35,096 nt of DNA from Chthoniobacteraceae bacterium (GTDB lineage: Bacteria; Verrucomicrobiota; Verrucomicrobiia; Chthoniobacterales; Chthoniobacteraceae), in NCBI GenBank assembly GCA_947448395.1, contig CANFNA010000014.1, forward strand, positions 1-35,096. Reading direction: 5' to 3'. Numbering within the stretch: position 1 is the first letter of the stretch; the number at the start of each line of letters is the position of its first letter. Under the pieces are notes generated by a model. The model did no database searches. It was not told the origin of the DNA and saw only the letters and a program-made list of their open reading frames with translations. Below, piece by piece: positions 1 through 26,980 of this stretch. The position numbers were made by a program, and so were the translations under genes.

Positions 1-920
1 AGCAGGAGGTTGCCGGAGTTGAGGCGCCGGATGAAGAAGCGGGCATTTGGGTTTTGTATTGCGGAGTCGACTGGTTGGGTCCACGTGCGACCGCCGTCGA
101 TCGATGTAGATTCGCTGACGCCCTTACCTGCGCGGGCAAGCATCCACAGCGAACCGTCTTTGCGCTCAACGATCATGTGTTCGTCGAAGTCAGACTTCGG
201 AAACGACACACCTCCGCGGCGGGACCAAGTTTTCCCTTGGTCGGAGGACACAAAAACGTTCGCCATTCGGATCGAATCGAGGTCCTTGTGTGCGTCCCTA
301 AAAGTCTCGACCCCTTCGAAGTCTTTATTCCAAGGTCCCATCCGATCTCTGCTCCATAGTGAAACGGGAAGCAGCCACTCGCCGTTGCTGAGCACGGTCG
401 GCTTATTGAGCGTGCAGCCATCTGCAAATCGACATGGCGCCGACCATTTTGGCTCAAGATCGTCCGGGTTGTCGCAGCGAATGTACCAATCTCCGGCTCG
501 CCCATCAAAATAACCGAGGCTCTGATCAAAGAAGCACCAGAGGCGCCCGAGTGGATCCGTCCACAGATTTCCGACAAGGCAGCGGCGGTTTGGTTTGCCG
601 GGAAGATCCGTCGGGTCGATCACAACGCGGGGCTTTGACCATGTCTTCCCGCTGTCGTCGCTCGAGGCCAACATGAAGAATCCGTTAGGGCTGTCTCCAT
701 TTCCAACCCATGCAGCCCAAAGACGCCCCTTCGGGGTCCGGTCTATTCCGAGCACCATGTTGCCTGGCCGTACTGCATCGGCATACTCCGGGCCTGGACT
801 CGTATTGATGTGCGGAGGCTCGAGTGACAAATCCGCTGTGGAGCGATCAAGCGCGGAGCACTGAGCGCTCAGCGCTAAAATAGAGACGATTGAGGCGGCT
901 GCACTGATGAGGAAAGACAT
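1..920 (-). CDS. Sialidase-like BNR-repeat protein, 3' end cut by window edge
   Basis: An open frame runs on the minus strand from an ATG at 920 to the first base of the window without a stop, giving 306 visible residues. A hydrophobic start (residues 2-23, ending near SAQCSA) looks like a signal peptide. Asp-box motifs of the BNR/sialidase propeller are visible: SSDDSGKTW near residue 86, SSDQGKTW, and STSIDGGRTW. The family is BNR_2 (Pfam PF13088 type), often annotated exo-alpha-sialidase. The visible part aligns with the N-terminal propeller of the protein at 3719-6028, for example GIDRTPKGR with GIERTPQGR and FFIRRLNSGN with FFIRRLASGN, so the two are paralogs. The canonical FRIP motif with the first sialidase arginine is not visible, so the substrate may not be sialic acid. 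The start lies 3 bases after the aldolase stop, so this is the last visible gene of the operon. By comparison with the paralog, roughly the last 70-90 residues of one propeller are missing. Confidence 0.85.
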   Translation of the reverse strand, partial: MSFLISAAASIVSILALSAQCSALDRSTADLSLEPPHINTSPGPEYADAVRPGNMVLGIDRTPKGRLWAAWVGNGDSPNGFFMLASSDDSGKTWSKPRVVIDPTDLPGKPNRRCLVGNLWTDPLGRLWCFFDQSLGYFDGRAGDWYIRCDNPDDLEPKWSAPCRFADGCTLNKPTVLSNGEWLLPVSLWSRDRMGPWNKDFEGVETFRDAHKDLDSIRMANVFVSSDQGKTWSRRGGVSFPKSDFDEHMIVERKDGSLWMLARAGKGVSESTSIDGGRTWTQPVDSAIQNPNARFFIRRLNSGNLL

Positions 921-923
921 GGT

Positions 924-1667
924 CTAGGGAGTTTGTTGGTGGGGCTGCGCCGTGGTTAAAACCGCTTGGTAAGCTTTGCGCAAAATTCCGAGGTCAGAAT
1001 CGATAGCGAGCATGCTGAATCCTAAATTTTGCAGAGTCGCTATCTCTGCCGGCTCTCTTAAAAGAATGCCCGCCGCCTTACCGGCATTTGCTGCAGAGGC
1101 AGCAACGCTCTTGAGACATTCCTCGTAGGAGCCCGGGGAGGACGTCGCATTTATTTGAAGATCGAATTGCAGATCCGCCGGGCCAACGAAAAGAACATCG
1201 ACCCCTTCGACACTTGCGATTTCCTGCGCGTTTCGTACCGCGTTTCCAGATTCGATTTGCGCAACAATTAGAGGCTTTGGAGTAGAGTCGGCTGAGCGCA
1301 ATCCGTATTGGTGGGCTCTCACCGACCGCGAGAAACCCCGCTTCCCAATCGGCGGGTAGTGTGCCGCCGCAACAATAGCAGTCGCTTCAGCTGCTGATTC
1401 GATATGAGGGACCATGACTCCGTTAGCACCCCAATCGAGCAGTCTTCCAATGAGGTCGGCGTGCGGGGCTCCGACCCGTACAATCGCAGCGGTACCTGTT
1501 CCCTGTAAGGCATGTAGCAGTCCTGGGATTGCTGACTCTCCGCTGCATCCGTGTTCGAGATCTAGCAGAACCCAGTCAAATCCACAGAGGGCAGCCAACT
1601 CCGCTACCGGTGGTGCCGCACTGGAGACCCAAGTGCCAATTTTTGGATAAGCCATGATAGACTTCAT
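924..1667 (-). CDS. HpcH/HpaI-family class II aldolase
   Basis: This 247-residue protein matches the HpaI family of metal-dependent aldolases, which cleave 2-keto-3-deoxy or 4-hydroxy-2-oxo acids to pyruvate plus an aldehyde in the cytoplasm. Visible hallmarks are GTWVSS near residue 11, LLDLEHG with the catalytic His at 39, IVRVG with Arg 64, QIESGNAV with metal ligand Glu 139, and FVGPADL with metal ligand Asp 165. These correspond to the His, Arg, Glu and Asp positions known in E. coli HpaI. Length is near the family norm of about 250-265. The ATG overlaps the stop of the upstream kinase gene by four bases (ATGA), which implies translational coupling. Relatives include 2-keto-3-deoxy-L-rhamnonate aldolase (RhmA-like) and 4-hydroxy-2-oxoheptanedioate aldolase. 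Sequence alone does not fix the substrate. Confidence 0.9.
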   Translation of the reverse strand: MKSIMAYPKIGTWVSSAAPPVAELAALCGFDWVLLDLEHGCSGESAIPGLLHALQGTGTAAIVRVGAPHADLIGRLLDWGANGVMVPHIESAAEATAIVAAAHYPPIGKRGFSRSVRAHQYGLRSADSTPKPLIVAQIESGNAVRNAQEIASVEGVDVLFVGPADLQFDLQINATSSPGSYEECLKSVAASAANAGKAAGILLREPAEIATLQNLGFSMLAIDSDLGILRKAYQAVLTTAQPHQQTP

Positions 1668-2749
1668 AAGTACGATAAGGGAGCAGTGGTTTTGAGAGCG
1701 TCGATCGCCAGATCGATTCTTGCCCGAGTAAATGCGCGTAGTTCAGGCCCTGAGCTTGAAGCCCCAATCAGAAAAAAATCAGAGGACTTTTCAAAATAGC
1801 CTGCACCCACCCGGATCACCGCTTTGACAATCATGTTCCGCAGCAAATGGAGCCAAAAACGCGGCAAGAAGGAGTCTGGTTCTGGCTGAAAGGAACGGTA
1901 GCCACGGACGGCAAACTCGAGAAAGGCTCCGTTATGAAAACAGCCCAAGAGCGAAAGGTCATCCGTAGGGTCTCCGCAAATGGCATCATCGAAATCGATG
2001 AAGGCCTCGACGGAACGCTTCGTCCCAAGGACGTTCCAAAGCGCGAGATCTTTATGGACGAGGCATCCGCTCGATAAACGCAGCAGGTCTTGGTGTTGAT
2101 CTATGGCCTCCTTGACTCGCCGTCGTTCGTTCTCGGTGAAGAATTCACGCTCGGTCAGAAAGGCAAGGTGGTTGTCCAGATTGAGCAGAAAGTAGTTGGT
2201 ATAGGATTTGTGGAATCCAATGAACCTACCCGTTGCGCGAAGTGGCTCGAGATCCAATGGGCCAAATCCATCCGGGCGTATATTCTGCCACCGCCCAATG
2301 GCCTCGCCGATGGAGCTAGCAATCACGGGCACATTCAACTGACCTGCCTTGATGGATTGGTTCAGATCAGGAAATGGAAGCTGCTCCATTGCCTGCCATG
2401 CAAACGGCACGCGGTCTCGTGAGACATCAACGGCATGAATCTTTGGGACGCGGACGCCAGTTTCCGAGACCCGCTCCATCACGGCTGATTCCATTTCCAA
2501 TTGGCAATCCCCTTCAGGACCGTTTTCGACTCGAATGAACAGCGATGTGCCATTGATCTGGGTAGTCCACGTCAGATGGTTGCCTTGTGACGGGCGCGTT
2601 ACGAGCGAGACTTTTTCTTGGTTGAAGCGGCGCGCTATTTCCGAGCACAAAGATTCTTGAATCGAGGCTTCTGCCGTGGCTCTAGGACCGGTCCCATGAA
2701 AGGCGACGGGGCGGTCGCATTTCCAATAATAGATGTTTCTTCTGCTCAT
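1664..2749 (-). CDS. APH-family small-molecule kinase (phosphotransferase enzyme family)
   Basis: The protein (361 residues from the ATG at 2749; a GTG lies one codon upstream) has the aminoglycoside phosphotransferase/choline kinase fold. The catalytic loop is LVHKDLALWN near residues 230-239, giving the H-x-D-x4-N pattern, and the metal-binding segment IDFDDA follows near 251-256. An N-lobe nucleotide loop is suggested by SQGNHLTW near residue 54, and LFIRVE has Arg where many members have the ATP-binding Lys. Members phosphorylate hydroxyls of drugs, choline, homoserine, sugars or other metabolites. It sits between the symporter gene (gap 21 bases) and the aldolase (overlap of 4), so a catabolic kinase activating an imported substrate before aldol cleavage is more likely than antibiotic resistance. 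The substrate is unknown. Confidence 0.82.
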   Translation of the reverse strand: MSRRNIYYWKCDRPVAFHGTGPRATAEASIQESLCSEIARRFNQEKVSLVTRPSQGNHLTWTTQINGTSLFIRVENGPEGDCQLEMESAVMERVSETGVRVPKIHAVDVSRDRVPFAWQAMEQLPFPDLNQSIKAGQLNVPVIASSIGEAIGRWQNIRPDGFGPLDLEPLRATGRFIGFHKSYTNYFLLNLDNHLAFLTEREFFTENERRRVKEAIDQHQDLLRLSSGCLVHKDLALWNVLGTKRSVEAFIDFDDAICGDPTDDLSLLGCFHNGAFLEFAVRGYRSFQPEPDSFLPRFWLHLLRNMIVKAVIRVGAGYFEKSSDFFLIGASSSGPELRAFTRARIDLAIDALKTTAPLSYL

Positions 2750-2770
2750 CACATTCCGTTGCGCCTGTGG

Positions 2771-3700
2771 CTAAATGGAGGGATTTCTTCGCCACCACGC
2801 GGCGATTACACTTCCGATAAGGTTCTGAATGACGCCGCTAAAAACAGCGGGCACCGCAGCGATGGGTTGTGTTGGGAAATTCTTTTTTGCGAGCATCGCT
2901 GCCATTCCACCGTTTTGCATTCCGACTTCGATTGCGATAGTTCGAGCGGTGATTATCGGATAACCGAGGATTCGAGCGACCATGTAACCCAGTAGAAATC
3001 CGAGCACGTGTAGCAGGAACGCAGCAATGATGAGCTTTCCTGCGTTGTCAATCACAGCGGCAGCATTTTGAGAAACGATGCCTGCCGTGATTAGGACCAC
3101 GGCGATTACTGATACTGCCGGGCCAAAAGGCGAAACGGCTTTGATAACGGAGGGTAGACGCCAATTGCAGATGACCCCGATCAGAAGGGGAGCGACAACG
3201 ACCTTCAGCGTTGAGAGACTGAGTCCCATTGCGTCCACGGGAACATAGTGGCCCGCTAAGAGACGGCACCACAAGGGGGTGGTTGCAAATGCGAACAAGG
3301 TTGAGGTGAGGGTCACCGAGACGGCAAGTGCGACGTCTACTCTAGCGAGATAGCATACGACATTGGAGGCCGTTCCAGAGGGACAACTTGCAACAAGAAT
3401 AAGTCCTACCGCCATGCCGGGTTCGAGGTGCAGCATTCTGCCAATTAGCCACCCGCTCAAAGGCATGATGCTGTAGTGTGCCAGAAATCCGAGACTCAGT
3501 GCACCCGGGGCGCTTAACAGGCGTTGGAAATCGCGGAGCGTCAGGGTCATTCCCATTCCGAGCATCACAGATCCGAGCGCGGCGGTAATCCAGCCGCCGT
3601 TAAACCATGAGAAGGATGGAGGATGAATCAGAGCGATCGCTGAACAGAGGATCAGCCAGAGCGGATAATAGCCCGTAATTGCGGAAAGGATGCGTTGCAT
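2771..3700 (-). CDS. Bile acid:sodium symporter (SBF/BASS) family transporter
   Basis: This is a polytopic membrane protein (309 residues from ATG 3700; a TTG at 3712 would add four residues) with about nine to ten hydrophobic segments. Family hallmarks are GMGMTLTLRDFQRL near residues 48-61 and VASCPSGTASNVVCYLAR near 103-120, the SBF sodium- and substrate-binding region. SBF proteins use the sodium gradient to import organic anions such as bile acids, pantothenate or 2-keto acids. It lies 18 bases downstream of the 769-residue sialidase-like gene and just before the kinase gene, so it probably imports a product released by the secreted sialidase-like proteins. The substrate cannot be read from sequence, but an anionic compound fits both the family and the downstream aldolase. 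Confidence 0.9.
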   Translation of the reverse strand: MQRILSAITGYYPLWLILCSAIALIHPPSFSWFNGGWITAALGSVMLGMGMTLTLRDFQRLLSAPGALSLGFLAHYSIMPLSGWLIGRMLHLEPGMAVGLILVASCPSGTASNVVCYLARVDVALAVSVTLTSTLFAFATTPLWCRLLAGHYVPVDAMGLSLSTLKVVVAPLLIGVICNWRLPSVIKAVSPFGPAVSVIAVVLITAGIVSQNAAAVIDNAGKLIIAAFLLHVLGFLLGYMVARILGYPIITARTIAIEVGMQNGGMAAMLAKKNFPTQPIAAVPAVFSGVIQNLIGSVIAAWWRRNPSI

Positions 3701-3718
3701 GAAAGGCGACAAAAGGGG

Positions 3719-6028
3719 TTATTCAAGACGCCCGAACATGATGCGTTCTTTGCGCGATGGATCAGAGTCGCCTTGGGTTACACACAGCCAAATATTGCCT
3801 CGGTGTTCATGAAAGGTTGGGTACTGAAATGATTGCTCGCTTTCGAAGCGGTACTTCCGTTCCCAGCGCTTTCCGTCCACAGAGATGTCGATATTGAATA
3901 CAGAGCGCGACACCCCATTGATCTGCGCTTTATCCTGCCAGCCAAGATAATAAATGTTTCTGAATCGATCAAAAGTGGGCTTGGAGTTTGTGCCGGTGGA
4001 CACGAAGGACAGGTGTTCGCCGATGCTCCAGTTCACGCCATCTTTGCTCGTGGTGAAGGTATAGTTGCCGTTTCCGCCATCCTGCCTGCAAATGGCCAAC
4101 CACGTGCCATCCGGGAGTTGATTTACCGAGGACTCGCTGAGCCGGAGCGCCGATGGCTCGTTGTAGTGGCCGATCACTTCGAAGGTGTCACGTGCCTCAT
4201 TGATCACAGCTAATCCGTTCTGCGCGCCGATGAAGTTATTGAGCGCTACGTAGGTCTTTCCTCCGAAGACTTTGAAAGAATCAAAGATATAAAGCCCGTA
4301 ATCCTTGGGAGGCTTTCCGAAGCCGACCTTTGCGGCGTCCGCATGAAAATGCTGCGGCTCCATTTCGAATGTTCCGAGGGAGGTCTTTAATTTCGCGGGA
4401 TAGATGCGCTGGTCAAAAGTGAGCGTCTCAAGGTGGAAATCACGATACCATGTTTTCGCCTGACGCTTTCCCGGAGCCTCGCTCGCAAAAAAGCACCGCA
4501 AGGTGTTCTTGTTTAACTGCAGAATGCGCGGAACGAAGCACGCTCCGTCGGGCAAAGAGCCATTTTCGAAGATCTGTTCACCACGTGCAACGGGAATGAC
4601 TTGTTCCGTCTTTAAGGTGTCGAGACTCACGATGGACAGGGCCGAATAGATGAAGGGCCACCCGCCTCCCTCTCCGGCCTTAAGATCGTTTACTTCAGCG
4701 ACGATGTAGGCCTTATTTCCGACTAGAACCATCTCCGCGTCGTGGGCGCCTTTGACCTCAGGGGCCGTGACTTTCACGAGCTTAGCTAGGATTGCGTCGG
4801 CTTTTTGTTTGGGATCCCAGAAATCCGGCAATAGATGCTCATGGGCTAGAGGTGCCTGTGAGCGATCTATACGGCTGACCATTTGCTTGAGGCGCACTTT
4901 TCCGGAAACAGCATGTCCCGCCAAGACATCCTCTTCGCGAAAAGTACTCATCAGGATTTCCGCGGCCCCTCCTCGGTCACGATCGTGAACGAGCCAAATC
5001 AGACCGTCCTTATCCTGAACGCCGTCTGGATAAGAGACGCTATCGCGTTCGTCTAAAAGGAGGCCGTTGTTCCACGAATGGCCGTCGTCGATGGACAGTT
5101 GCGCCGTGAGGTGGCTGCGTCCTTTAAAGTTGTAATGGTTGACTAATAGGAGGTTTCCAGAGGCGAGTCGACGGATGAAAAAGCGGGACCCTGGACTTGC
5201 AATGGTGCTTCGCTTTCCTTCGCTCCAAGAAAGCCCGCGATCGAGTGAAAAGCTCTCCCAGAGATGACCGCTGCTGGTGCGAATTAGCATCCAAAGGCGG
5301 CCGTCTTTGAGTTCCGTGATCATATTCTCGAGTGCCCATGGCGCCGACCGGACGGCACCATGCAGTTTCCACGTTTTCCCTTCATCTTTGGAAATGCCAA
5401 CGCCATGGAGCGTGGGTTGCTGGCGGTCGTTATATCCGGTGCACCAAGCATGTACCGGTTCTGCCGCGTGGGTCACTGGCATGAGCCACTCACCAGTCGA
5501 CAGAACGGTAATTTTATTCATGCGAAATGCGAAAGGGACTTCGTAGCCTACTTTAAATTCTGGACCGAAAATGGGAGGGTTTGCGTCGGGTCGCTCGCAG
5601 ATTCGAGCACGAACATCGTGTGTCGCCGTGGACTGGTTTCCGCGATTAAAAATATACCATAAGCGTCCCTTCGGATCGATCCACGGAGTTGGATCGAAGC
5701 AGCGTGTGCCGTCGGCGGTTGGCGCGCCGATTGTGAGAGGTGAGTTAAAAGTTTTTCCATTGTCATCGCTGTAACTGATCAAGACTGTGTTTTCAGGTTC
5801 AGGCTCCTTGGCGCCTCCCGAGAACCAACTCACAAAGACTCGGCCTTGGGGAGTGCGCTCAATTCCCGGGATACCCTGCCATGTCCGGACCGGACTGAAG
5901 CTGGAAGTCTCAGTGCTGGCCTCGGAGTGCATGGCGCTGAGACCGAGAACGGCGATGATTAAAAGGGTCGCAAACAACAATGAATGCGAGGCGACGGCGC
6001 CGTTGTCGGGGGTGCGGTTGGGGCTCAT
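3719..6028 (-). CDS. Secreted sialidase-like protein with two propeller regions
   Basis: A 769-residue protein with a charged N-terminus and a hydrophobic stretch at about 16-33 that is a plausible signal peptide. Residues 45-370 form a BNR_2/sialidase-like region with Asp boxes at YSDDNGKTF (86-94), SKDEGKTW (213-220), SLDRGLSW (261-268) and SIDDGHSW (312-319). Residues from about 390 to the end form a second propeller-like region with degenerate boxes (TSKDGVNW, SVDGKRW). Common single-propeller sialidases have about 350-400 residues, so this is a tandem architecture. The FRIP arginine motif is absent: QGIPGIERTPQGR occupies the equivalent position, as in many BNR_2 proteins, so glycosidase activity is inferred rather than shown. 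It is the first gene of the minus-strand operon and diverges from the LacI regulator with 60 bases between them. The ATG has no Shine-Dalgarno sequence. Confidence 0.88.
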   Translation of the reverse strand: MSPNRTPDNGAVASHSLLFATLLIIAVLGLSAMHSEASTETSSFSPVRTWQGIPGIERTPQGRVFVSWFSGGAKEPEPENTVLISYSDDNGKTFNSPLTIGAPTADGTRCFDPTPWIDPKGRLWYIFNRGNQSTATHDVRARICERPDANPPIFGPEFKVGYEVPFAFRMNKITVLSTGEWLMPVTHAAEPVHAWCTGYNDRQQPTLHGVGISKDEGKTWKLHGAVRSAPWALENMITELKDGRLWMLIRTSSGHLWESFSLDRGLSWSEGKRSTIASPGSRFFIRRLASGNLLLVNHYNFKGRSHLTAQLSIDDGHSWNNGLLLDERDSVSYPDGVQDKDGLIWLVHDRDRGGAAEILMSTFREEDVLAGHAVSGKVRLKQMVSRIDRSQAPLAHEHLLPDFWDPKQKADAILAKLVKVTAPEVKGAHDAEMVLVGNKAYIVAEVNDLKAGEGGGWPFIYSALSIVSLDTLKTEQVIPVARGEQIFENGSLPDGACFVPRILQLNKNTLRCFFASEAPGKRQAKTWYRDFHLETLTFDQRIYPAKLKTSLGTFEMEPQHFHADAAKVGFGKPPKDYGLYIFDSFKVFGGKTYVALNNFIGAQNGLAVINEARDTFEVIGHYNEPSALRLSESSVNQLPDGTWLAICRQDGGNGNYTFTTSKDGVNWSIGEHLSFVSTGTNSKPTFDRFRNIYYLGWQDKAQINGVSRSVFNIDISVDGKRWERKYRFESEQSFQYPTFHEHRGNIWLCVTQGDSDPSRKERIMFGRLE

Positions 6029-6034
6029 TGTTTC

Positions 6035-6040
6035 ATATTA
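6035..6040 (-). promoter_or_regulatory. Possible -10 box of the sialidase operon (leaderless)
   Basis: On the minus strand TAATAT (five of six matches to TATAAT) ends six bases before the ATG at 6028. That spacing would place the transcript start at the start codon itself and fits the lack of a ribosome binding site. No convincing -35 is present at 17-18 bases. The call is tentative. Confidence 0.35.
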
Positions 6041-6083
6041 CCCAGACAGCGGTAGGATTTTGAGTGCCAGATTAAAATTCCGT

Positions 6084-6098
6084 GCGTTATGATAACGC
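6084..6098. promoter_or_regulatory. Perfect 15-bp inverted repeat, candidate LacI-family operator
   Basis: GCGTTAT-G-ATAACGC is a perfect palindrome with 7-base arms around a single central base. It covers the first possible ATG of the regulator (6089) and contains TATGAT (6088-6093), a good -10 match placed seven bases before a second ATG at 6101. An odd-length operator with a half-site GATAAC recalls the lac operator. Its position suits autoregulation and control of the divergent sialidase operon. Binding is inferred. Confidence 0.6.
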
Positions 6099-7138
6099 TC
6101 ATGCCCTCTGATGGAGTGACGTTAAAGCATCTGGCACAGATCTGCGGGGTTTCACTCATGACGGTCTCCAGAGCAATCCGCGGGGCGCCTAGGGTGGCCT
6201 CGAAAACTAGGGAGGCAGTCTTAAAAGCCGTGCAAGCGTTGGGCTACGAGCCCGACCCGCATTTGCATCGGATGATGAAGTTGGTGCGTTCGCGAAAGCG
6301 GGTGAGGATGCGCGCGGTCATGGCCGTTCTCCGTGAGGATATTCCTCGAGATGATCTCGTAAGCCCATCCTATCAGTTCGTGCCGATTGAGGAGATGCGT
6401 CGCCGCGCGAGGGGGTACGGGTATGAGGTAGAGGAGTTTTGGCTTGGGCGCGGGACTCAGACTCCGTATCGCGTTCAAAGGATTTTAGAGGCGCGAGGGA
6501 TTGAGGGGGTCCTAGTATCGCCGCAGAGCGAGGAGTTGTTATGTGCGCAGATGGATTATTCACCTTTTGCGGCGGTGACATTCGGTTATGCGATGAGTGA
6601 GCCTGCTTTGCACATGTGCGCAGGAAATATGAATTTAGGAATTCAGCGCGCGGCACTGGAATTGGATCGGCGAGGGTATCGACGGATTGGCCTGGCGATC
6701 ACACCTTGGATCGATCGTAGGTCGCAGAATGGGTACAGCGCTGGGATGCTTCATTTTCAGAAACAGATTCCGCGCTCAAGGCGAGTGCCTATTTTAATGA
6801 TGCCTTACAACAATCTGGGCCGTTGTTTCGGCGTGTTCGCGAATTGGATGCGCAAGTGTCGTCCCGATGCCCTGATTACTTTTGAGACACACGCTCCGAG
6901 TTGGTTAAAGCGCATGGGCTTGCGAATCCCTGAGGATGTTGGGTTTGTCGTTCATGACTGGACAACGCGGATGTCCGGCTTTGCTGGGATTTATCAGCGA
7001 AGAGATCACCTGGCAGCCGCGGCCGTGGATTTGGTGATTACGCAACTTTCTCAGAACGAACGAGGAGTGCCCGCCGTGCCGCGCCAGTTGATGATTCCGC
7101 CCGAGTGGGTGGAGGGGCCGAGCGTTCGGCCAAAATAA
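6089..7138 (+). CDS. LacI-family transcriptional regulator
   Basis: This 349-residue protein has an N-terminal LacI helix-turn-helix, VTLKHLAQICGVSLMTVSRA (residues 10-29), followed by a periplasmic-binding-protein-like sensor domain (about 70-349) with segments such as GIEGVLVSPQ and RRGYRRIGLAI. The hinge reads LGYEPDPHLHRMM instead of the usual P-x-A-x-x-L helix, a variant I associate with Verrucomicrobiota regulators. The coordinates use the first ATG. An in-frame ATG at 6101 would give a 345-residue protein starting five residues before the domain and may be the true start, because the inverted repeat 6084-6098 overlaps the first one. Neither has a clear ribosome binding site. It diverges from the sialidase/symporter/kinase/aldolase operon and probably senses a sugar or intermediate of that pathway. 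Confidence 0.92.
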   Translation: MITLMPSDGVTLKHLAQICGVSLMTVSRAIRGAPRVASKTREAVLKAVQALGYEPDPHLHRMMKLVRSRKRVRMRAVMAVLREDIPRDDLVSPSYQFVPIEEMRRRARGYGYEVEEFWLGRGTQTPYRVQRILEARGIEGVLVSPQSEELLCAQMDYSPFAAVTFGYAMSEPALHMCAGNMNLGIQRAALELDRRGYRRIGLAITPWIDRRSQNGYSAGMLHFQKQIPRSRRVPILMMPYNNLGRCFGVFANWMRKCRPDALITFETHAPSWLKRMGLRIPEDVGFVVHDWTTRMSGFAGIYQRRDHLAAAAVDLVITQLSQNERGVPAVPRQLMIPPEWVEGPSVRPK

Positions 7139-14678: not shown

Positions 14679-15458
14679 ATGATTCGACTGCTTAGCACGG
14701 ATTTCGACGGAACCTTGGTGGACCATTTTGCGATTCCTCCGGTGGATCCGGCCCTTTTTTCGATGCTGGAGGCGCTTCGGGGGAAGGGAGTGCATTGGGC
14801 GATTAATACGGGCCGCGATTTGCCATTTGTGGACGAGGGTTTGAGGGAATTTGGATTTCCGATAGAGCCTGACTTTGTTTTGACCGCTGAGCGCGAGGTT
14901 TTTCATCGGGGTCCGGGCGGTGGCTGGCAGGACTTTGGGGAGTGGAACCAGCGGTGCTACAGAGCGCATGATGCGCTATTTGAGCAGGCATCAGAATTGC
15001 TGACTGATATTCAATGCTTTGTGGATGAGGAGCGTGTGGAGGCAAATTTGATTATGGAGGGAGGAAGGCTGGTGGGTTTGGCCTCAGAGACGGAAGCGGA
15101 GATGGATCGTATTTGCGCGTTCTTGGAGGTGGAGCGCCGACGAGTTCCGGGTTTCGGATTTATGCGGAACACCATTTGGGTGCGATTTTGTCACGAGGCC
15201 TACAGTAAAGGGACGGCGTTGTCTGAATTAGGGCGGTTAACGGGTATTGGGCCGGATGAGATATTTGCCGCGGGAGATCATTATAATGATCTTCCGATGC
15301 TAGACGGAGTGCATGCGAAGTGGGTGATGTGTCCATCAAATGGAGTTGAAGTGGTGCAGGAGGTGGTTCGTCGGGCGGGGGGATACGTTGCGAAAGGACG
15401 TTGCAGCTCTGGTGTAGTTGAGGCGTTGAACCATTTCGGCGCCCTGATCCGAGGATGA
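14679..15458 (+). CDS. HAD-superfamily (Cof-like, type IIB) phosphatase
   Basis: This 259-residue protein has the four HAD motifs: STDFDGTL with nucleophile Asp 8 and acid/base Asp 10, AINTGRD with Thr 44, SKGTAL with Lys 177, and GDHYNDLPML with Asp 200 and Asp 204. A type II cap lies between motifs II and III, as in Cof/sugar-phosphate phosphatases and trehalose/sucrose phosphate phosphatases. I start at the ATG at 14679, which places motif I at the N-terminus; the frame is open further upstream but overlaps the small divergent gene. Its stop overlaps the start of the maltokinase-like gene by four bases (ATGA), so both products probably act in one pathway. A sugar-phosphate substrate is inferred. 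Confidence 0.88.
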   Translation: MIRLLSTDFDGTLVDHFAIPPVDPALFSMLEALRGKGVHWAINTGRDLPFVDEGLREFGFPIEPDFVLTAEREVFHRGPGGGWQDFGEWNQRCYRAHDALFEQASELLTDIQCFVDEERVEANLIMEGGRLVGLASETEAEMDRICAFLEVERRRVPGFGFMRNTIWVRFCHEAYSKGTALSELGRLTGIGPDEIFAAGDHYNDLPMLDGVHAKWVMCPSNGVEVVQEVVRRAGGYVAKGRCSSGVVEALNHFGALIRG

Positions 15459-16486
15459 ATCAGCCAGCTCCAAAGCGACGATTTCGCGCGATTCGCGGTG
15501 GATTTCGCGAGAGAAGTGTCGTTTGGAGTCCTTTGGATTGCGGGTCTACCAACCGCCTGTGGAAGGGGCGTGGGAAGGTGTGCGATTGGCTTTTAAAGTG
15601 GTATCGGTATCCAGAGGCGGGAATCCATCCCGAGGCTGAAATCGCACGCTTTCTGGGAGCTTTTGATCACGTTGGGGTTGCAGGTTTCGGGGGAATTCTT
15701 GAGGAGAGTTTGGGGGATGGGGGTTGGATGACGGTTGCCCTGATTCAGGAGTGGGTCGAAGGATCCACGGCTTGGGAGAAAGTCATCCGAGAGTTGCGTG
15801 ATGGGGTCGTTGATGTGGTAGCCGCGCGGCGTTGGGGCCGAACCGTTGGCGGGGTGCATGCGGCGTTATCCTCCGGAGGAAAGAAATCGGAGTTTGGAGC
15901 CGAGCCATGGACGGAAAGTGACTCGCGCGAATTGGCGAAGAGAGTCGAGGCACTCGGCGTAAAGCTCTTATCCGCGCTTTCTGAAGGCCAACCGAGTCAG
16001 GTGTGTCCGTTGGTTTGGACGGAATTACGAGCGAGATGGTCGACGAGTGAGGGCGAGCGCGAATGGCGTCAAAAGGCACGGGCACTCGCGGAAGTTCAAG
16101 TCGGCGGAGCTCGCAGCCGAATCCATGGAGACTTGCATCTGGGACAAATTCTAGAGGCGGAAAACGGCGCGACGATTTTAGTCGATTTTGAAGGGGAGCC
16201 ACTTCGGTCGATTAAAGAGCGGCGCGCTATGGATGCTCCTTTGCGGGATGTGGCGGGAATGTGGAGATCCTTCTCTTACGCGGGCGCTGTTAGTGGAGTC
16301 GGGATGGAGAGAGTTGAAGGGCTCCAACAGTCTTTTTTAGGAGGATGGTCGGAGTGCATGCCTTTCCCGGAAGGGAATTGGAGGTTGCTGTTAAACGGTC
16401 TAATTTGGGAGAAGGCGATTTACGAGACGCTCTACGAACTCCGTCATAGGCCGGACTGGATGTGGGTTCCCGCACAAGCGATTTAA
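15455..16486 (+). CDS. Maltokinase-like sugar kinase
   Basis: The 343-residue protein has an APH-like kinase fold with features of maltokinase (Mak/Pep2) and of kinase domains fused to trehalose synthase. Visible are a nucleotide-loop-like GSTNRLWKG (30-38) and Lys 48, the catalytic loop RIHGDLHLGQIL (222-233) with Asp 226, the metal-binding VDFEGEPL (243-250), PLRDVAGMWRSFSYA (262-276), and a C-terminal EKAIYETLYELRHRPDWMWVP segment. In the GlgE pathway maltokinase makes maltose-1-phosphate from maltose and ATP. Known enzymes are about 430-450 residues, so this one is short, apparently at the N-terminal cap region. It is coupled by a 4-base overlap to the HAD phosphatase. No glgE or treS is in the window, so the maltose assignment is an inference. 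Confidence 0.75.
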   Translation: MNQPAPKRRFRAIRGGFRERSVVWSPLDCGSTNRLWKGRGKVCDWLLKWYRYPEAGIHPEAEIARFLGAFDHVGVAGFGGILEESLGDGGWMTVALIQEWVEGSTAWEKVIRELRDGVVDVVAARRWGRTVGGVHAALSSGGKKSEFGAEPWTESDSRELAKRVEALGVKLLSALSEGQPSQVCPLVWTELRARWSTSEGEREWRQKARALAEVQVGGARSRIHGDLHLGQILEAENGATILVDFEGEPLRSIKERRAMDAPLRDVAGMWRSFSYAGAVSGVGMERVEGLQQSFLGGWSECMPFPEGNWRLLLNGLIWEKAIYETLYELRHRPDWMWVPAQAI

Positions 16487-19970: not shown

Positions 19971-21281
19971 TTAATCCTTTGGTGTAAGGGTTCCTAGCCC
20001 TCGCATGGTCGCATCTGTGACGGAGCGGAATCTCCATTTACCTGACCAGTCCCGTCGCATGAGGCGGTCGAGATGATCAGATCCGCCGGATACAGCGATA
20101 CTCGGAAGAATCTTTGTGCCAGAGCTTTGCATGAGCGGTAATCGTGCGGCGCTCGCTGCGATGAGTCCTTCCAGCATTGCTGAGAGCATATTTTCGCGCG
20201 TGGATGCCAGTGTTAGTCCTGAGAAGCCTCCTTGGCGCTGTTCGAGGCTGGTGCGCTCTCCAGCCATATAGGGCTCGAATTTGACAGTTCCGGCTGCGGC
20301 GGGGCCAAGCTTGGCTAAGCGGAACATTTCCTTCCTAAAATCCTCAATCGACATGCCTTGAAAGAATTGGAGACGAGCCCAATAGAGCGCAGAGGCGACA
20401 GCCGCCATGGTGCCTACCATCACAAATTTATTTTCGATTCCGAGTGCGCGAGTCAGCAGTTGCTCGTGAGGGCGTGGTTGTTGGGTGCAAAGGGCCAGCA
20501 CATCCGTTGAGCCACACACATTGAAGAGTTGGCCGTGATTGGCTCCAGCGAGCAGCATCCCAGCACTTCCGTCCACGAGACCTGTCATCACCGGGGTCCC
20601 GGCGCGAAGGTGAAATCGTACCGATGCCTCTTGGGTTATGGTGCCTGCGATGCGGTCAGCCTCTTGAATCTCAGGTAATAAATTTGGATCCGCACCGATG
20701 TTTTCACAGAGGTTGGCGTTCCAGCCTTTCAGAGAAAGCGTGTTATAGAGACCTGTGAAGGAAGCGTTTGAAGGGTCGGTTACACGCGCTCCCGTCATGT
20801 GTCTGTGGAGGAAAGTGTTGAGATGACCGACTAGATCGGCGCGCTTAAGCCGCCGAGGTTCGTGTTTCCGATACCACGCCCATGTCGTGGAGCTGATGCC
20901 CCCCGGAAATGGGCGGCAGCCGGTGATGGCAAGATGCTTCTTTTTACCAATGCGCGATTCAATTTCGCGTGCGATCTCCACACTTCGTCTGTCCTGATGG
21001 GTGACGAGGGGTGTTAGCGGCTTGCCCGATTTATCCATGGCAACCCAAGCGGGGCACATGACCGCAAGCGCTATTGCGTCAACCTGTTTGGCTTTCCCGC
21101 TGAGTCCGTGGATGGCTGCGGCGACCGCGCGAAGGAGGTCTTCCGCATCGACCTCCACTTTTGAGCCTGCATGGGTGGACTTGAAAAATACGCGGGGCGA
21201 TTCTGCGAGCACTCTTTTTCCTGACAAGATTCCAGCGATTACAGACGAGGAACCGACATCGATACCGAGGAGGGTTGGCAT
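19971..21281 (-). CDS. FGGY-family carbohydrate kinase
   Basis: This 436-residue sugar kinase has the N-terminal phosphate loop LLGIDVGSSSVIAGI (4-18), THQDRR (94-99), TDPSNASFTGLYN (168-180), TGLVDGSAGMLLAG with the likely catalytic Asp 237, NVCGSTDVLAL, and a C-terminal nucleotide-binding AVSGGSDHLDRLM. FGGY kinases phosphorylate xylulose, ribulose, glycerol, gluconate, sedoheptulose and similar substrates. This one is shorter than xylulokinase (about 480-500), and its specificity cannot be set by eye. A sedoheptulokinase-like role is possible, given the transaldolase elsewhere in the window. It is divergent from a TIM-barrel isomerase-like gene at 21538, a plausible partner in pentose or ketose use. 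Confidence 0.85.
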   Translation of the reverse strand: MPTLLGIDVGSSSVIAGILSGKRVLAESPRVFFKSTHAGSKVEVDAEDLLRAVAAAIHGLSGKAKQVDAIALAVMCPAWVAMDKSGKPLTPLVTHQDRRSVEIAREIESRIGKKKHLAITGCRPFPGGISSTTWAWYRKHEPRRLKRADLVGHLNTFLHRHMTGARVTDPSNASFTGLYNTLSLKGWNANLCENIGADPNLLPEIQEADRIAGTITQEASVRFHLRAGTPVMTGLVDGSAGMLLAGANHGQLFNVCGSTDVLALCTQQPRPHEQLLTRALGIENKFVMVGTMAAVASALYWARLQFFQGMSIEDFRKEMFRLAKLGPAAAGTVKFEPYMAGERTSLEQRQGGFSGLTLASTRENMLSAMLEGLIAASAARLPLMQSSGTKILPSIAVSGGSDHLDRLMRRDWSGKWRFRSVTDATMRGLGTLTPKD

Positions 21282-21537
21282 GAGATGGGGAGGGTTATTG
21301 AAGTTGGGAGAGGCGACGAAGCTCCGAGCCTGAATAGCAGTGAGATAAAACTCTTATGGTGGACTAAAAGCGAGACAAACGGAGAGTTGATTTTGACTCA
21401 CAACAAACTAGCGGGTGGCGAGTTAAGGGTTCTTTTTGTAGGGGTGCAGGGCTTCCGCCCTTTGGCGCGGCATTGTTGGGGGCCCGCCTATGATTTGGAA
21501 CTTCCGCCCCTTTCAAATATCGCGTGTAATTTAGAGA
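21282..21537. other. Intergenic region between divergent kinase and isomerase-like genes
   Basis: This 256-base stretch holds no convincing gene. The nonamer CTTCCGCCC occurs twice in the same orientation, at 21452-21460 and 21501-21509. No strong hairpin terminator or clear promoter hexamer pair is evident. Confidence 0.5.
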
Positions 21538-22557
21538 ATGAGCTCGAGATTTTCCCTCAAAACCGCCGTTCAATTGGGAGTTGTTCCCACGCACATCAAA
21601 TTTGTCGGTGGACTGGTTCCAGACGAGCACGGAAAATTTCCGCGGGACGCCGCTGGTGTTTTGGAGACGGTTGCATCGATGCGAGTGCTGTGTGAGGCCT
21701 CGCAAGTTCGTCCAACGTGCGTTCAGATTCCCTTCTTTGCCTCTGCCCAAGCATCGGAAGTGGGGGAGATGGTAGCTGGTCTAAGGGCTTTAGATCTTGA
21801 GGTACACTTCATCATGATGGTTGGAGGAGCGAACCCGATGAATCCTGCAGATGAAGATGCTGTGGTGGCTCAGCTTGTGACGAGTTTGAAGGCGGCGGTG
21901 ATTCACGGAGTGCGGCACGTTTCATCCACCTCGATCGAAGAGTGGATGAGCGCAAATGAAACCCGTCGCGATGGGTTGGCTTTCGAGGCGGCGGTGGCAC
22001 AAAACGTCCGCGTTCACCTTCGGGCGTACGAGGAAGCGGGACTGCGGGGGTCTTGTGTAGAAGGTTGGCATATTGAGTTTTTGCGACCAGGAGAATTCAA
22101 AACATTTACCGATCTTGAACGTGGATGGGGGTTTGTGCGCGAGGCGAACAAGGCGCTCGGTAAAAAGTTTTTCAAGCTTTTGGTAGATGCTGCCCACTGC
22201 GGCGATTCGGGCCTTTCAATTGAGCAGAACGAGGCGTTGATCCGTCGCATTGCCGAAGCTCAGGAGTTGGGAATTTTTCATGCTTCCGCTAAGACAACTC
22301 GAGGATGCCTATCGACGGATGATGGCTGGATTGGCGCTTTGCTGAGTGCGGCGGCGCGGACTGGAGAGCTCAGGCACGTATTTGTCGAAGTTTTCCACCA
22401 CGAAGATCCGGCTCTGGAGTTATTGCGGAGGCTAGATCCCGGACATGGGATCGATACACGCGATGGTCGCACGTATAGCGAGGTCACGGCAGACGGACTC
22501 AAAGATGTGGGGCGTCGGTTGAACAACCTCCGCGCGCGGAGCATCCTGCGATCGTGA
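21538..22557 (+). CDS. TIM-barrel sugar isomerase/epimerase-like protein
   Basis: The 339-residue protein is not a textbook match, but its last strands carry the pattern of the xylose-isomerase-like TIM barrel (AP_endonuc_2): KLLVDAAHCGDSG with Asp/His, IFHASAKTTRG with His, and VFVEVFHHEDP with Glu, spaced as metal ligands on successive strands. Members isomerise or epimerise sugars and inositols. There is no signal peptide, so it is cytoplasmic. It is divergent from the FGGY kinase gene and convergent with nagB, with 13 bases between the stops. The reaction and substrate are unknown. The ATG at 21538 is the first in the frame and no strong ribosome binding site precedes it. Confidence 0.65.
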   Translation: MSSRFSLKTAVQLGVVPTHIKFVGGLVPDEHGKFPRDAAGVLETVASMRVLCEASQVRPTCVQIPFFASAQASEVGEMVAGLRALDLEVHFIMMVGGANPMNPADEDAVVAQLVTSLKAAVIHGVRHVSSTSIEEWMSANETRRDGLAFEAAVAQNVRVHLRAYEEAGLRGSCVEGWHIEFLRPGEFKTFTDLERGWGFVREANKALGKKFFKLLVDAAHCGDSGLSIEQNEALIRRIAEAQELGIFHASAKTTRGCLSTDDGWIGALLSAAARTGELRHVFVEVFHHEDPALELLRRLDPGHGIDTRDGRTYSEVTADGLKDVGRRLNNLRARSILRS

Positions 22558-22570
22558 GGTCTCTAAATAC

Positions 22571-23350
22571 TCATCTCAGTAGAGATGCGGCTGCAGCATC
22601 CAGAAAAAGGACTGCCTCTCGCCGAGTTCTTACAATGCTCGCCGGACAGGACGTGTCGACGGGGCCGAGACAAGTTGAGTGCACCGCTTGAGCCTTCCGT
22701 TCGCCCGGCACGACAATGCTGAGGTGAGCGGCATTGCGGAACACTGGTAGCGTCAGTGTGATGGCATTGTTAGGGACCTCTTGGAGGGAGCTGAAGCAAC
22801 CATCATTCACCTGCTGTTGGCGGCAAATAGCATCGAGTTGAACAATTTTTGCTGATTCAGGGTCGCTGAAGTCTGCCACCGGAGGGTCATTGAAGGCGAG
22901 ATGACCATTCTCGCCTATCCCGAGACAGATGAGGTCGATGGGGGCCTCGTTGATGAGTTTTGAATAACGGGCACATTCGTGCGCCGGGTCTGGGGCCTCT
23001 CCGGCGATTGGATGAAATCGCCCGACGTTGATTTTTGAGAGGAGATGCTGCAGCAGATAATTGCGGAAGCTTGCTGGATGCGAAGCTGAGAGTCCGATGT
23101 ACTCGTCCATGTGAAAAGCAGTGACTTTGGACCAGTCGATTTGTCCGACGGATTCTGAAACCAAGGACTCCAGAAATTGATCCTGAGACGGTGCGCAGGC
23201 AAAGATGATTCGTGCGGCACCGGTGAGAGAAATTTGTTTAGAGACAATTTCAATAACATGTTTTGCCGCGGCCATCCCCATGTCTAGACGCGTGGGATGG
23301 ATTGAGATGCGAGGTGATCCTTCGATAAGGTCTGGAGAATGGGAGGTCAT
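22571..23350 (-). CDS. nagB: Glucosamine-6-phosphate deaminase
   Basis: This 259-residue enzyme converts glucosamine-6-phosphate to fructose-6-phosphate and ammonia. The active-site segment FHMDEYIGLSASHPASFRNY (about residues 79-98) contains the catalytic Asp 82, and LGIGENGHLAFNDP (143-156) carries His 150. Length is close to E. coli NagB (266). The ATG at 23350 is chosen because it lies seven bases after the nagA stop; the frame stays open to 23467, but that extension overlaps nagA and lacks homology. The allosteric GlcNAc-6-P site of the hexameric enterobacterial enzyme cannot be judged. It is the last gene of the gntR operon and its product enters glycolysis. Confidence 0.93.
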   Translation of the reverse strand: MTSHSPDLIEGSPRISIHPTRLDMGMAAAKHVIEIVSKQISLTGAARIIFACAPSQDQFLESLVSESVGQIDWSKVTAFHMDEYIGLSASHPASFRNYLLQHLLSKINVGRFHPIAGEAPDPAHECARYSKLINEAPIDLICLGIGENGHLAFNDPPVADFSDPESAKIVQLDAICRQQQVNDGCFSSLQEVPNNAITLTLPVFRNAAHLSIVVPGERKAQAVHSTCLGPVDTSCPASIVRTRREAVLFLDAAAASLLR

Positions 23351-23357
23351 GAGATAA

Positions 23358-24305
23358 CTAGGCAAAGGAGAATCCAAGCGCTGTGAGAGGGATGCGCGAC
23401 GCCATATTGGAAGCGTCTGCATGCGTGATTCCGAGCCATTGACTGGCATTTGCAATGCCTTCATCAAGTTGGAGTGAACTGCCCGCGAAATACGGACTTC
23501 CTGGCATTCGAACTACCCTATCTAAACCGACTTCCAATTCGAGACGTCCAATCGTATATCGGCCTGGTGGCGCGCCAGCAGCAGCCATCGCGTCTGTGGT
23601 TAAGATGACTTTATTAGGCGGTTTAGCGCGAAACAGATTTCGAAGTGTGGCTGAAGGGAGATGGACGCCGTCTGGGATGAGACATGCAATTAATTCATCT
23701 CGGGCGAGAAGACGTTGAATGATATTGTCATGCCGGTGGAGTTCCGCGGGACAACCATTTCCAAGGTGCGTGCAGAGTGTTGCGCCGGCCCGGATGGCCT
23801 CATCGATTTGAACATCACTAGCGTTCGTATGCCCCAACGAAATACGCACTCCAGATGCGGATGCAGCCGCTATAAATTCACTCGATCCTTCCCGCTCTGG
23901 TGCAAGGGTGACGAGACGAATATGGCCTGATGCAGCCTCCTGCATGAGAGTAAACTCCCGCCAGTCTGGGTTCTTCATCGCCTCGGCGGGATGGGCCCCG
24001 CGATACCCCGTCTCTGCGCTCAAATAAGGACCTTCAAGATGGTACCCGACGATGGTGTCAGAGATCAGAGCGTCTTTGGTTCTATACGATTCAAATATGC
24101 GGAGTTTTGAAATGATCGCATTCGGTGCATCCGTAATGAAAGTTGCTAAAATTCGGTGCATGCCGCATTCGTGAAGCCTCAGACAGGCTATTCGCACCTC
24201 CGAAAGAGTCGGACAGCGTTGAAAGTCGACGCCCGCAAATCCGTTTACCTGAAGGTCGAATAGGCTGTCAGGTGCTGGCTTTGGGCTTGAGGAGCCAGTT
24301 TGCAT
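23358..24305 (-). CDS. nagA: N-acetylglucosamine-6-phosphate deacetylase, short form
   Basis: This amidohydrolase removes acetate from GlcNAc-6-phosphate. Visible motifs are FDLQVNGFAGVDF near the N-terminus (Gln rather than His, as in single-metal E. coli NagA), YHLEGPYLS with the metal-ligand Glu, SLGHTNAS with His, CTHLGNG with His, and ILTTDAMAAAG with the catalytic Asp. At 315 residues (ATG 24305; a GTG at 24311 adds two) it is about 65 shorter than E. coli NagA and lacks most of the N-terminal strands of the beta-sandwich domain. An in-frame TAG lies shortly upstream of the GTG, so no longer start is possible. It lies 20 bases after the isomerase gene and seven bases before nagB. Confidence 0.9.
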   Translation of the reverse strand: MQTGSSSPKPAPDSLFDLQVNGFAGVDFQRCPTLSEVRIACLRLHECGMHRILATFITDAPNAIISKLRIFESYRTKDALISDTIVGYHLEGPYLSAETGYRGAHPAEAMKNPDWREFTLMQEAASGHIRLVTLAPEREGSSEFIAAASASGVRISLGHTNASDVQIDEAIRAGATLCTHLGNGCPAELHRHDNIIQRLLARDELIACLIPDGVHLPSATLRNLFRAKPPNKVILTTDAMAAAGAPPGRYTIGRLELEVGLDRVVRMPGSPYFAGSSLQLDEGIANASQWLGITHADASNMASRIPLTALGFSFA

Positions 24306-24325
24306 GAACACTTTGTTCGCGGTGG

Positions 24326-25204
24326 TTATGCGCTATGGAGGATGGATTCAAGTAACAGCTCGAGAGCACGTCCGTAGCGGACATAAGATTCACGACGGAC
24401 TTCTGCAGACGCCTGAGCTGCCCCAAGGTGAATGATGCTTGCCACGTGCGGCTCGATCGAAATGCCAGCCGTGTAGCCGCTTTTGAGCAAATCAATTAAA
24501 ATTTCGCGCATGCAGGCGTCTCCTTCTCCCGGGAGAGTGAATTCGTTGCTTTTTCCGCCTGCTGGATTTCTTCGGCAGTCCTTGATGTGGACGTAACGAA
24601 TTAGCGGGCGCACTTTTTCGTAAAAGCTCCAGCTCTCTTGGCCGTATGCGGCCGTGTTGCCGATATCATAGAGAACGCCAACATTCGGATGATTCACACG
24701 CTCGATAAACTCGCAGGTGTTTTCTGCACTGAGTCCCGCCCAACCCTCGCAGTTTTCATGCAGCAGGAGAATGTCTGATTCCTCGGCAATACGAGCCATT
24801 ATCTTATAACGACGAATCCCCTCTTCTCGCCAGTGGTCCATAGTTGCGTCTCCGCGAACCCAACTCATCGTCCTCACAAAGCGCGTGCCGACGCGGTTCA
24901 TTCTTTTCGAGAGCAGTCGAAGATCTGCGAGGTCTAATTCGAAGTCGCCTGTGATGGGACGGCTCCAGTTACCAATGGCAGACGCGAATGCTGTGACGGA
25001 GAGTTTTGCCGCTTCGATGGCTGCTACAGCATGTTCGAACTCGTCATCGCTGAGTAGGGCTGTGGAGGCTTGCTTGCCGCTGATCTGACGGAGTTCGATG
25101 CAGGACCATCCGAGTTCCTGATGTGCGGCTATCTGGCCATGAATGTCGTCTGCGGCCTCATCCGCTATGCCCGAGACGGGGAATGGGAGGTGGTTTGGGA
25201 GCAT
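24326..25204 (-). CDS. Sugar phosphate isomerase/epimerase (TIM barrel)
   Basis: The protein (292 residues from ATG 25204; a TTG at 25243 would add 13) is a xylose-isomerase-like TIM-barrel enzyme of the AP_endonuc_2 family. Metal-binding positions are visible as LLLHENCEGWAG (Glu), VGVLYDIGNTAA (Asp), YVHIKDCR (His and Asp) and AGISIEPHV (Glu). GWSCIELRQISGK near the N-terminus is also typical. Such enzymes epimerise or isomerise sugars, keto-inositols or hydroxypyruvate. It lies between an oxidoreductase gene and nagA in one operon, so it may convert an unusual amino sugar to a form that NagA accepts. The substrate is unknown. Confidence 0.85.
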   Translation of the reverse strand: MLPNHLPFPVSGIADEAADDIHGQIAAHQELGWSCIELRQISGKQASTALLSDDEFEHAVAAIEAAKLSVTAFASAIGNWSRPITGDFELDLADLRLLSKRMNRVGTRFVRTMSWVRGDATMDHWREEGIRRYKIMARIAEESDILLLHENCEGWAGLSAENTCEFIERVNHPNVGVLYDIGNTAAYGQESWSFYEKVRPLIRYVHIKDCRRNPAGGKSNEFTLPGEGDACMREILIDLLKSGYTAGISIEPHVASIIHLGAAQASAEVRRESYVRYGRALELLLESILHSA

Positions 25205-25249
25205 GATTGAATTTGGAGAAAGTGGAGATTCAGGTCGACGCAAAGTGTC

Positions 25250-26257: not shown

Positions 26258-26283
26258 TGGGGGATTATGAGCGGTTTGATGCA

Positions 26284-26967
26284 TCAGCTGTGAGGGGTCC
26301 ACTCCTGCCATCGAGTGATGTGTTGCTGAAGGAGTTGTATGGCCGCGGCAGAGTTTTGCATTTCAAGTGCATCAACGATGTGGGCGTGGTCAGCGGCGGA
26401 GGCTTTGGATTCGGCGAGGCAAGTTGCTGAGACGTAACTGCGGAAGTTTTTTACCAGCATGGCTTCAAAAGGCCATCGGATGGTTTGCCATGCGGCGCTG
26501 AGCCACTGAGAATGGGACGCAGCGCAAAGTAGTTCGTGAAATTCTGCATCGAGACGAGCTAGGGCCTCCGGCGAATCCGCAGAGGCGAAGGCGTGTACAT
26601 TTTGACGAAGCTGGATGAGATCTGCGGAGACTCTGGCGGAAGCTGCGAGTCCCGCGGCAAATGCTTCTAGTTGGAGGCGAATCGCCGTAATCTCCTGCCA
26701 GTCGGTTTCGCCGAGTTTGCGGGCGACGAGGGTGTTTCTTTTCCCCAGAGCGACTAGGCCGTCGCGTTCAAGCTGGAAGAGCGCTTCGCGTACGGGTACG
26801 CGGCTGACGCCGAGGCTTGCCGCGCACTTGGATTCGGTGAGCGCCATTAGAGGGGTAATTTCTCCAAGAACGACTCGGTGGCGTAATTCTTCCAAGACTT
26901 GTTCTGCGACGCTTTGACGCGCCACGCTGAAAGCAGATGCAGGCGGAAATGGGGAGGGGGAAACCAT
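26284..26967 (-). CDS. GntR-family (FadR/FCD subfamily) transcriptional regulator
   Basis: This 227-residue regulator (ATG 26967) has an N-terminal winged helix at about 18-82 with TESKCAASLGVSRVPVREAL (44-63), the GntR recognition region. A helical FCD ligand domain follows, in which RLDAEFHELLCAASHS and ASAADHAHIVDALEM carry the Asp/His residues that usually bind a metal and a small organic acid or sugar acid. Coordinates exclude an upstream extension to 27015 that would be translated across the operator. The gene heads the operon gntR, oxidoreductase, isomerase, nagA, nagB, and its own promoter overlaps a perfect palindrome, so it probably represses the whole operon and itself. The effector is likely a pathway intermediate. 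Confidence 0.92.
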   Translation of the reverse strand: MVSPSPFPPASAFSVARQSVAEQVLEELRHRVVLGEITPLMALTESKCAASLGVSRVPVREALFQLERDGLVALGKRNTLVARKLGETDWQEITAIRLQLEAFAAGLAASARVSADLIQLRQNVHAFASADSPEALARLDAEFHELLCAASHSQWLSAAWQTIRWPFEAMLVKNFRSYVSATCLAESKASAADHAHIVDALEMQNSAAAIQLLQQHITRWQEWTPHS

Positions 26968-26980
26968 CTGGGTGGCTGTA

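Follow-up and report, generated by a model that had tools for sequence, protein, structure and literature searches.

A conserved operon of sialidase-like proteins, a kinase and pyruvate aldolases in Verrucomicrobiota, with a possible role in the catabolism of acidic sugars

The stretch of DNA analysed here (the window) is the entire 35,096-bp contig G000:C14 (CANFNA010000014.1) of a Chthoniobacteraceae bacterium, whose genome is 82% complete and consists of 268 contigs. One end of the window carries genes for two exported sialidase-fold proteins (BNR-A, 3719–6028, and BNR-B, 3–920), an importer of the SBF family, an APH-family kinase and an HpaI-type aldolase, next to a divergent LacI-family regulator. 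Our results show that this gene set is real and widely shared by freshwater and soil bacteria, mostly Verrucomicrobiota. We consider it probable, at roughly 60%, that LacI represses these genes and that they form an operon for the catabolism of an acidic sugar, probably of the 2-keto-3-deoxy type, derived from an external glycan. No description of this gene combination was found in the open-access literature.

In the proposed pathway, BNR-A and BNR-B would cut the acidic sugar off the external glycan, most likely a 2-keto-3-deoxy (ulosonic-type) sugar or a related sugar acid. The released acid would then be imported with sodium by the SBF symporter. Together, the APH kinase and the class II aldolase of the HpaI type would convert one such acid to pyruvate and a phosphorylated fragment, while an Eda-type aldolase and a PfkB-family 2-keto-3-deoxygluconate (KDG) kinase, encoded further along the operon, would perform the same conversion for a KDG-type acid. 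Presumably the acid or an intermediate is the inducer, which LacI would sense at a palindrome common to the operon promoters. We take the candidate sugars to be Kdo, Dha and Kdn of algal or lipopolysaccharide glycans, with uronate or deoxy-sugar glycans as the main alternative.

Operon layout and its continuation on a second contig

An earlier note on this DNA, made from the sequence alone, had described five packed minus-strand genes headed by a divergent LacI gene. Open reading frame (ORF) calls and a Pfam search bore out all six genes, and the intergenic gaps of 18, 21, −4 and 3 bp agreed exactly once ATG starts were used (3700 for SBF, 2749 for APH). The features of the operon are as follows:

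3–920, minus strand: BNR-B, N-terminal 306 codons, truncated where the contig ends, encoding a signal peptide plus the first sialidase-like propeller (Pfam BNR_2, 68 bits)
924–1667, minus strand: HpcH/HpaI-family class II pyruvate aldolase (PF03328, 124.7 bits versus a gathering score of 25; nearest solved structure GarL 1dxe, E 1e-36)
1664–2752, ATG start 2749, minus strand: APH-family small-molecule kinase, with a stop that overlaps the aldolase start (PF01636, 64 bits)
2771–3712, likely ATG 3700, minus strand: PanS-like SBF importer of the bile acid:sodium symporter superfamily (PF01758, 136 bits)
3719–6028, minus strand: BNR-A, exported, two sialidase-like propellers at residues 44–370 and about 399–769 (Pfam BNR_2 and structure comparison)
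6084–6098, no strand: predicted LacI-family operator GCGTTATGATAACGC, a palindrome recurring before regulon genes in relatives
6089–7138, likely start 6101, plus strand: divergent LacI-family regulator (Pfam LacI and Peripla_BP_3)
L134:14529–15287 on contig C52, same strand as BNR-B and downstream of it: Eda-type KDPG/KHG aldolase (TIGR01182, 215.5 bits, above the cut-off of 156)

The earlier note had treated positions 1–7138 as the full locus. This proved too short, as the BNR-B gene is cut at base 3 and the operon runs on to contig C52. The missing half of BNR-B was taken from relative L020 and used as a query against the bacterium's own genome. The second half was found on G000:C52 (L134:15211–16662, minus strand), 76% identical to the L020 protein. 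C52 and the window overlap at their ends by 14 identical bases, across which the reading frame continues. From the end overlap, the frame and the homology we infer that the two contigs join.

Downstream on C52 and on the same strand lies, besides the Eda-type aldolase, a kinase assigned to the PfkB family by Pfam. Its nearest relatives are KDG kinases, although it stayed below the curated equivalog cut-off for KDG/2-keto-3-deoxygalactonate kinase (189 versus 440 bits). The predicted operon order is BNR-A, SBF, APH, HpaI, BNR-B, Eda and the KDG-kinase-like gene, and hence comprises two pairs of a kinase and a pyruvate aldolase. The five families listed by the earlier note all stood, but Eda and the KDG kinase of the same operon had been missed.

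Eda and KDG kinase genes of this subgroup were present in 20 of the 25 cassette genomes tested. In relatives they adjoin BNR-B, LacI or the cassette, and in several Verrucomicrobiaceae they lie at most about 15 kb from LacI, BNR-A, SBF and APH. At locus L140, they are joined by genes for an MFS transporter and for MR_MLE and DHDPS proteins. KDG kinase and 2-keto-3-deoxy-6-phosphogluconate (KDPG) aldolase have been proven in another Verrucomicrobium (Luteolibacter lgu genes; PMC12632266). This Entner-Doudoroff-type pathway resembles our locus in its KDG kinase, its KDPG aldolase, the regulator opposite and the phylum. It differs in that sialidase-fold proteins, SBF, APH kinase and HpaI aldolase were not found in the text of PMC12632266.

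Other genes were also seen near the Eda-KDG kinase pair. At L144:11975–13897, a fusion of BNR_2 and SASA (sialate acetylesterase family), checked with Pfam, adjoins BNR-B and the pair, and BNR proteins of similar length occupy this position in L145 and L146. A right-handed beta-helix-like gene is present there in L144 and L145 (Pfam check for L144 only). In L058, L075 and L079, the KDG kinase has a neighbouring gene with a 599-aa product that was considered as a sugar-acid dehydratase; this was rejected, since the sequence points to an M3-type oligopeptidase.

Conservation of the cassette and a shared operator

The locus was compared with a set of 197 related genomes, 16 of which contained the kinase, and with 179 kinase loci from a scan of species genomes. 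Locus counts include only named loci with a long enough stretch. The best 80 of the 179 loci came from Verrucomicrobiota, Planctomycetota, Bacteroidota, Kiritimatiellota, Lentisphaerota and a few Pseudomonadota bins. The order BNR-A, SBF, APH, HpaI, BNR-B was repeated in the genus and the family, with a divergent LacI where the contig extends far enough. The HpaI aldolase was located 3' of the APH kinase in 68 of 76 loci and SBF ahead of this kinase in 53 of 73, with a BNR gene close by in 47/70 and LacI in 12/50. LacI orthologues beside the cassette in relatives showed 58–64% identity. In Runella zeae and Larkinella (Bacteroidota), the cassette stands behind SusC/SusD-like genes, which were named from sequence rather than by profile search; the ORF list of the window locus contained no SusC/SusD. 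The recurrence in several phyla places this arrangement far beyond chance, and answers the question raised by the earlier note of whether the neighbourhood is conserved outside its own genome.

The close group of aldolases (≥46% identity) was found in all 16 kinase genomes and in only one kinase-less genome of the 197 relatives. Furthermore, kinase and aldolase distances were correlated (r = 0.78; 0 of 500 permutations). In a neighbouring family, only the kinase-aldolase pair was retained as a unit, and the genes close by encode different transporters or exported proteins; these two genes are therefore the core of the cassette.

The gap between LacI and BNR-A carries the 15-bp palindrome GCGTTATGATAACGC. 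In relatives, GNGTTANNATAACNC occurs in the same gap, upstream of BNR-B and, in L137 and L140, between the Eda-KDG kinase genes and a LacI paralogue. The pattern GBGTTANNATAACVC gave 14 sites in 12 genomes, compared to 3 for the reversed control. By their coordinates, 11 of the 14 sites lie at promoters of regulon genes; those in G009:C146, G001:C21 and G501:C12 were not placed. Within the window alone, where the exact site occurs once, the palindrome was not significant, and the predicted operator derives its weight from conservation across relatives. ATG 6089 falls inside it, and LacI therefore probably starts at ATG 6101. The presence of the palindrome before BNR-A, BNR-B and LacI/Eda-KDG kinase indicates a single predicted regulon. 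This is in agreement with the earlier view of one co-regulated locus rather than genes with separate promoters.

Cultured carriers include Brevifollis gellanilyticus, Runella zeae and Larkinella punicea, so that it could be tested directly what becomes of these acidic sugars, a class that has been poorly tracked. Decayed copies were also observed: a 34-residue remnant of BNR-B follows HpaI in G009 and G002 (L021:2111–2212, L023:9171–9272), and SBF and APH are broken in G016 (L035). Genome G009 contains two cassettes. At L051:11269–17152 and at other Verrucomicrobiaceae loci, the genes directly after HpaI repeatedly encode DUF4886, FAD-dependent oxidoreductases and a protein of the polysaccharide pyruvyl transferase family.

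Properties of the sialidase-fold proteins, aldolase, kinase and importer

In the structural model of BNR-A (pLDDT 82, pTM 0.53), residues 44–370 matched the GH33 sialidase NedA (1w8o) with a VIA Z score of 35.0 over 304 aligned residues (root-mean-square deviation 2.4 Å, 21% identity). The second half, modelled alone (pLDDT 90, pTM 0.91), formed another propeller, with sialidases as nearest structures (VIA Z 30, 12% identity). The sialidase fold named in the earlier note was thus recovered by the GH33 match, but the name BNR_2 carries little information and the loss of a sialidase arginine had been overlooked.

A profile alignment to solved sialidases (including BTSA) located four residues in the BNR proteins, namely the Tyr/Glu nucleophile pair with its catalytic Glu and two of the three carboxylate-binding Arg. 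All four were invariant in the first domains of BNR-A (21/21) and BNR-B (49/49) and in the second domain of BNR-A (31/31). The second domain of BNR-B retained both Arg and the Tyr in 16 of 16 copies, and the Glu in 13 of 16. The position of the RIP-motif Arg is occupied by Gly in BNR-A and mostly by Met, otherwise Cys or Gly, in BNR-B. At the position of the acid/base Asp, assigned by sequence only, BNR-A had Glu in 21/21 copies, and BNR-B had Asp in 43/49 and Glu in 6/49.

In line with the GH33 exo-sialidases NedA (1w8o/1eur) and BTSA (4bbw), the BNR proteins have a six-bladed propeller, the catalytic Glu, the second and third Arg and the Tyr nucleophile. They differ from these enzymes in the replaced RIP Arg, the Glu of BNR-A at the putative acid/base position, and the presence of several propellers per protein. 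Because the RIP Arg is absent in all copies, the BNR domains were not placed in GH33. However, GH181 sialidases are also short of one Arg, have Gln/His instead of the Tyr nucleophile, and are inverting (PMC10067855, PMC12018670). Hence, loss of the RIP Arg is compatible with a sialidase. The GH181 sialidase Amuc_1547 shares the propeller class, a Verrucomicrobium source and two of the three arginines with the BNR proteins. In contrast to Amuc_1547, these keep an invariant Tyr, and by inference the BNR domains would act like retaining ketosidases.

A second BNR_2 cluster was found in the bacterium's own genome (G000:C18, L135:3554–12825), divergent from an FCD/AraC-type regulator. Its members include a BNR-A-like/BNR-B-like fusion and a LamG-BNR protein resembling those beside LacI in relatives, together with a GHL10 protein.

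Enzymes of the PF03328 family cleave 2-keto-3-deoxy acids. In the aldolase of our locus, the metal/pyruvate-site residues E38, H39, R64, R75, Q137, E139 and D165 were invariant. It shares its family, its class II type and these residues with GarL, HpaI, YfaU and the 2-keto-3,6-dideoxy-6-sulfogluconate (KDSG) aldolase. Unlike these enzymes, it fell below all curated equivalog cut-offs (GarL 156 versus 393–407 bits, HpaI 147 versus 369, 2-keto-3-deoxy-L-rhamnonate (KDR) aldolase 112 versus 441), and its group of close homologues is tied to the APH kinase. The KDSG aldolase, a PF03328 enzyme of the sulfo-Entner-Doudoroff pathway, accepts a sulfonate at C6, which makes a phosphorylated substrate conceivable for the aldolase studied here (PMC9594981).

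The APH kinase has the motifs HKDLALWN and DFDD (HxDxxxxN and DxD-type) in 16 aligned relatives, and its N terminus YYWKCDRP is conserved. A sequence search of the PDB returned only weak matches to aminoglycoside or hygromycin kinases, with no close solved relative and no hint of the substrate. Aminoglycoside resistance was rejected as its function: the kinase scored 26.8 bits versus a cut-off of 620, and it is linked to a catabolic cassette. The SBF protein scored 243 bits versus 400 for NCBIfam PanS, and thus lies below the equivalog of this pantoate/ketopantoate transporter. The symporter, kinase and pyruvate-type aldolase reported by the earlier note were therefore correct as Pfam families, while none of them reached the curated cut-off of a known equivalog.

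Alternative readings and other genes nearby

A more specific reading, possible but tentative, sees in the regulon the first pathway dedicated to an ulosonic acid from the environment, for example Kdo, Dha or Kdn from glycans of algae or bacteria. Its parts would be a new family of sialidase-like glycosidases that lack the RIP Arg, a new APH-family kinase for sugar acids or sugars, and a new HpaI-type aldolase coupled to this kinase, in parallel to the KDG kinase/KDPG aldolase branch. If true, a superfamily known chiefly for antibiotic resistance would gain a metabolic kinase, the pyruvate aldolases would gain a new branch, and a sialidase-like family with a changed active site would be added. 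The genomes of abundant freshwater Verrucomicrobiota and Planctomycetota would then also have a testable substrate.

Several observations weigh against the catabolism of a 2-keto-3-deoxy-type acid by this operon. The RIP Arg was retained in 0 of 21 BNR-A and 0 of 49 BNR-B first domains, and carboxylate binding may differ. With 17 to 26 matches per genome, the BNR_2 proteins of these bacteria form a large family of mostly uncharacterised paralogues, and the name alone therefore carries little information. To our knowledge, HpaI-family aldolases use unphosphorylated acids. The window operon contains no sugar-acid dehydratase that could make KDG. In some cases, the kinase-aldolase pair is not accompanied by BNR or SBF. 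Moreover, in eight genomes the kinase is not followed by HpaI; a close aldolase is found elsewhere in one of these and in none of the other seven, which suggests that the kinase is usable without HpaI. The seven genomes without a close aldolase count mildly against a strict kinase-then-HpaI order. The contexts of orphan kinases at L085, L100, L102, L109, L110 and L115 have no neighbour in common.

An alternative explanation might be that the operon targets a uronate or deoxy-sugar glycan. The propellers would then act as hydrolases or lyases on a glucuronate/rhamnose-type or other uronate glycan, and KDG from the uronate would be processed by KDG kinase and Eda. HpaI would split a second acid (for example 2-keto-3-deoxy-L-rhamnonate or 5-keto-4-deoxyglucarate) and APH would phosphorylate the aldehyde product. 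This would fit with Eda and KDG kinase within the operon, with GarL, HpaI and KDR aldolase as closest aldolase equivalogs, with the gene neighbours at L140, and with propeller uronate lyases in the Foldseek list of the second BNR-A domain. However, the top VIA matches were sialidases and included no lyases, the four sialidase residues (Glu, Tyr and two Arg) do not vary, and no KduI/KduD or rhamnose dehydrogenase recurred in the loci. On balance, this explanation seems rather unlikely.

We regard it as quite improbable that unrelated genes share the operon by chance, with a kinase-aldolase pair for housekeeping or detoxification and BNR proteins for something else. Such a chance association would be contradicted by the shared operator and by a gene order that recurs in several phyla, including SusCD loci, even though orphan kinases and, in another family, kinase-aldolase pairs that lack BNR or SBF would agree with it.

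The locus resembles canonical nan operons in having an exported sialidase-fold protein, a transporter, a kinase and a pyruvate-forming aldolase, but the latter three belong to other families. As the earlier note had observed, canonical sialic acid genes are missing from the locus. NanE (N-acetylmannosamine-6-phosphate epimerase) gave no match above the cut-off in any of 21 genomes, whereas the controls were detected; the bacterium's own genome is 82% complete. DHDPS-type NanA and NanK were absent beside the cassette, where the search for them was confined. Classical use of sialic acid is unlikely, because NanE is absent and the RIP Arg is lost in every copy. Catabolism of N-acetylneuraminic acid with non-orthologous parts, HpaI for NanA and the APH kinase for NanK, would be consistent with the sialidase fold and residues, the BNR-SASA fusion at L144 with its counterparts in L145 and L146, and a NagB-like gene within the window, yet it is very improbable in view of the same two losses, the breadth of the SASA esterase family, and the location of the NagB region in a separate GntR-linked cluster 16 kb away.

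This GntR/FCD-linked cluster (window 19971–27015) encodes an FGGY kinase, NagB-like and NagA-like proteins, a xylose-isomerase-like TIM barrel and a Gfo/Idh oxidoreductase. The NagB-like and NagA-like genes overlap by 110 bp, the latter without a Pfam match, and a 339-aa ORF at 21538–22557 on the plus strand had no Pfam match either. An unrelated second APH-family protein is encoded at 15455–16486. Regulators that combine an FCD sensor with an AraC-type HTH_18 domain, instead of the usual GntR domain, were found at L031:8041–8838, L034:11532–12308, L084:4441–5214 and L135:3554–4330. They were recognized by Pfam in L084 and L135 and by sequence clustering in L031 and L034, and three of the four lie near APH-HpaI cassettes.

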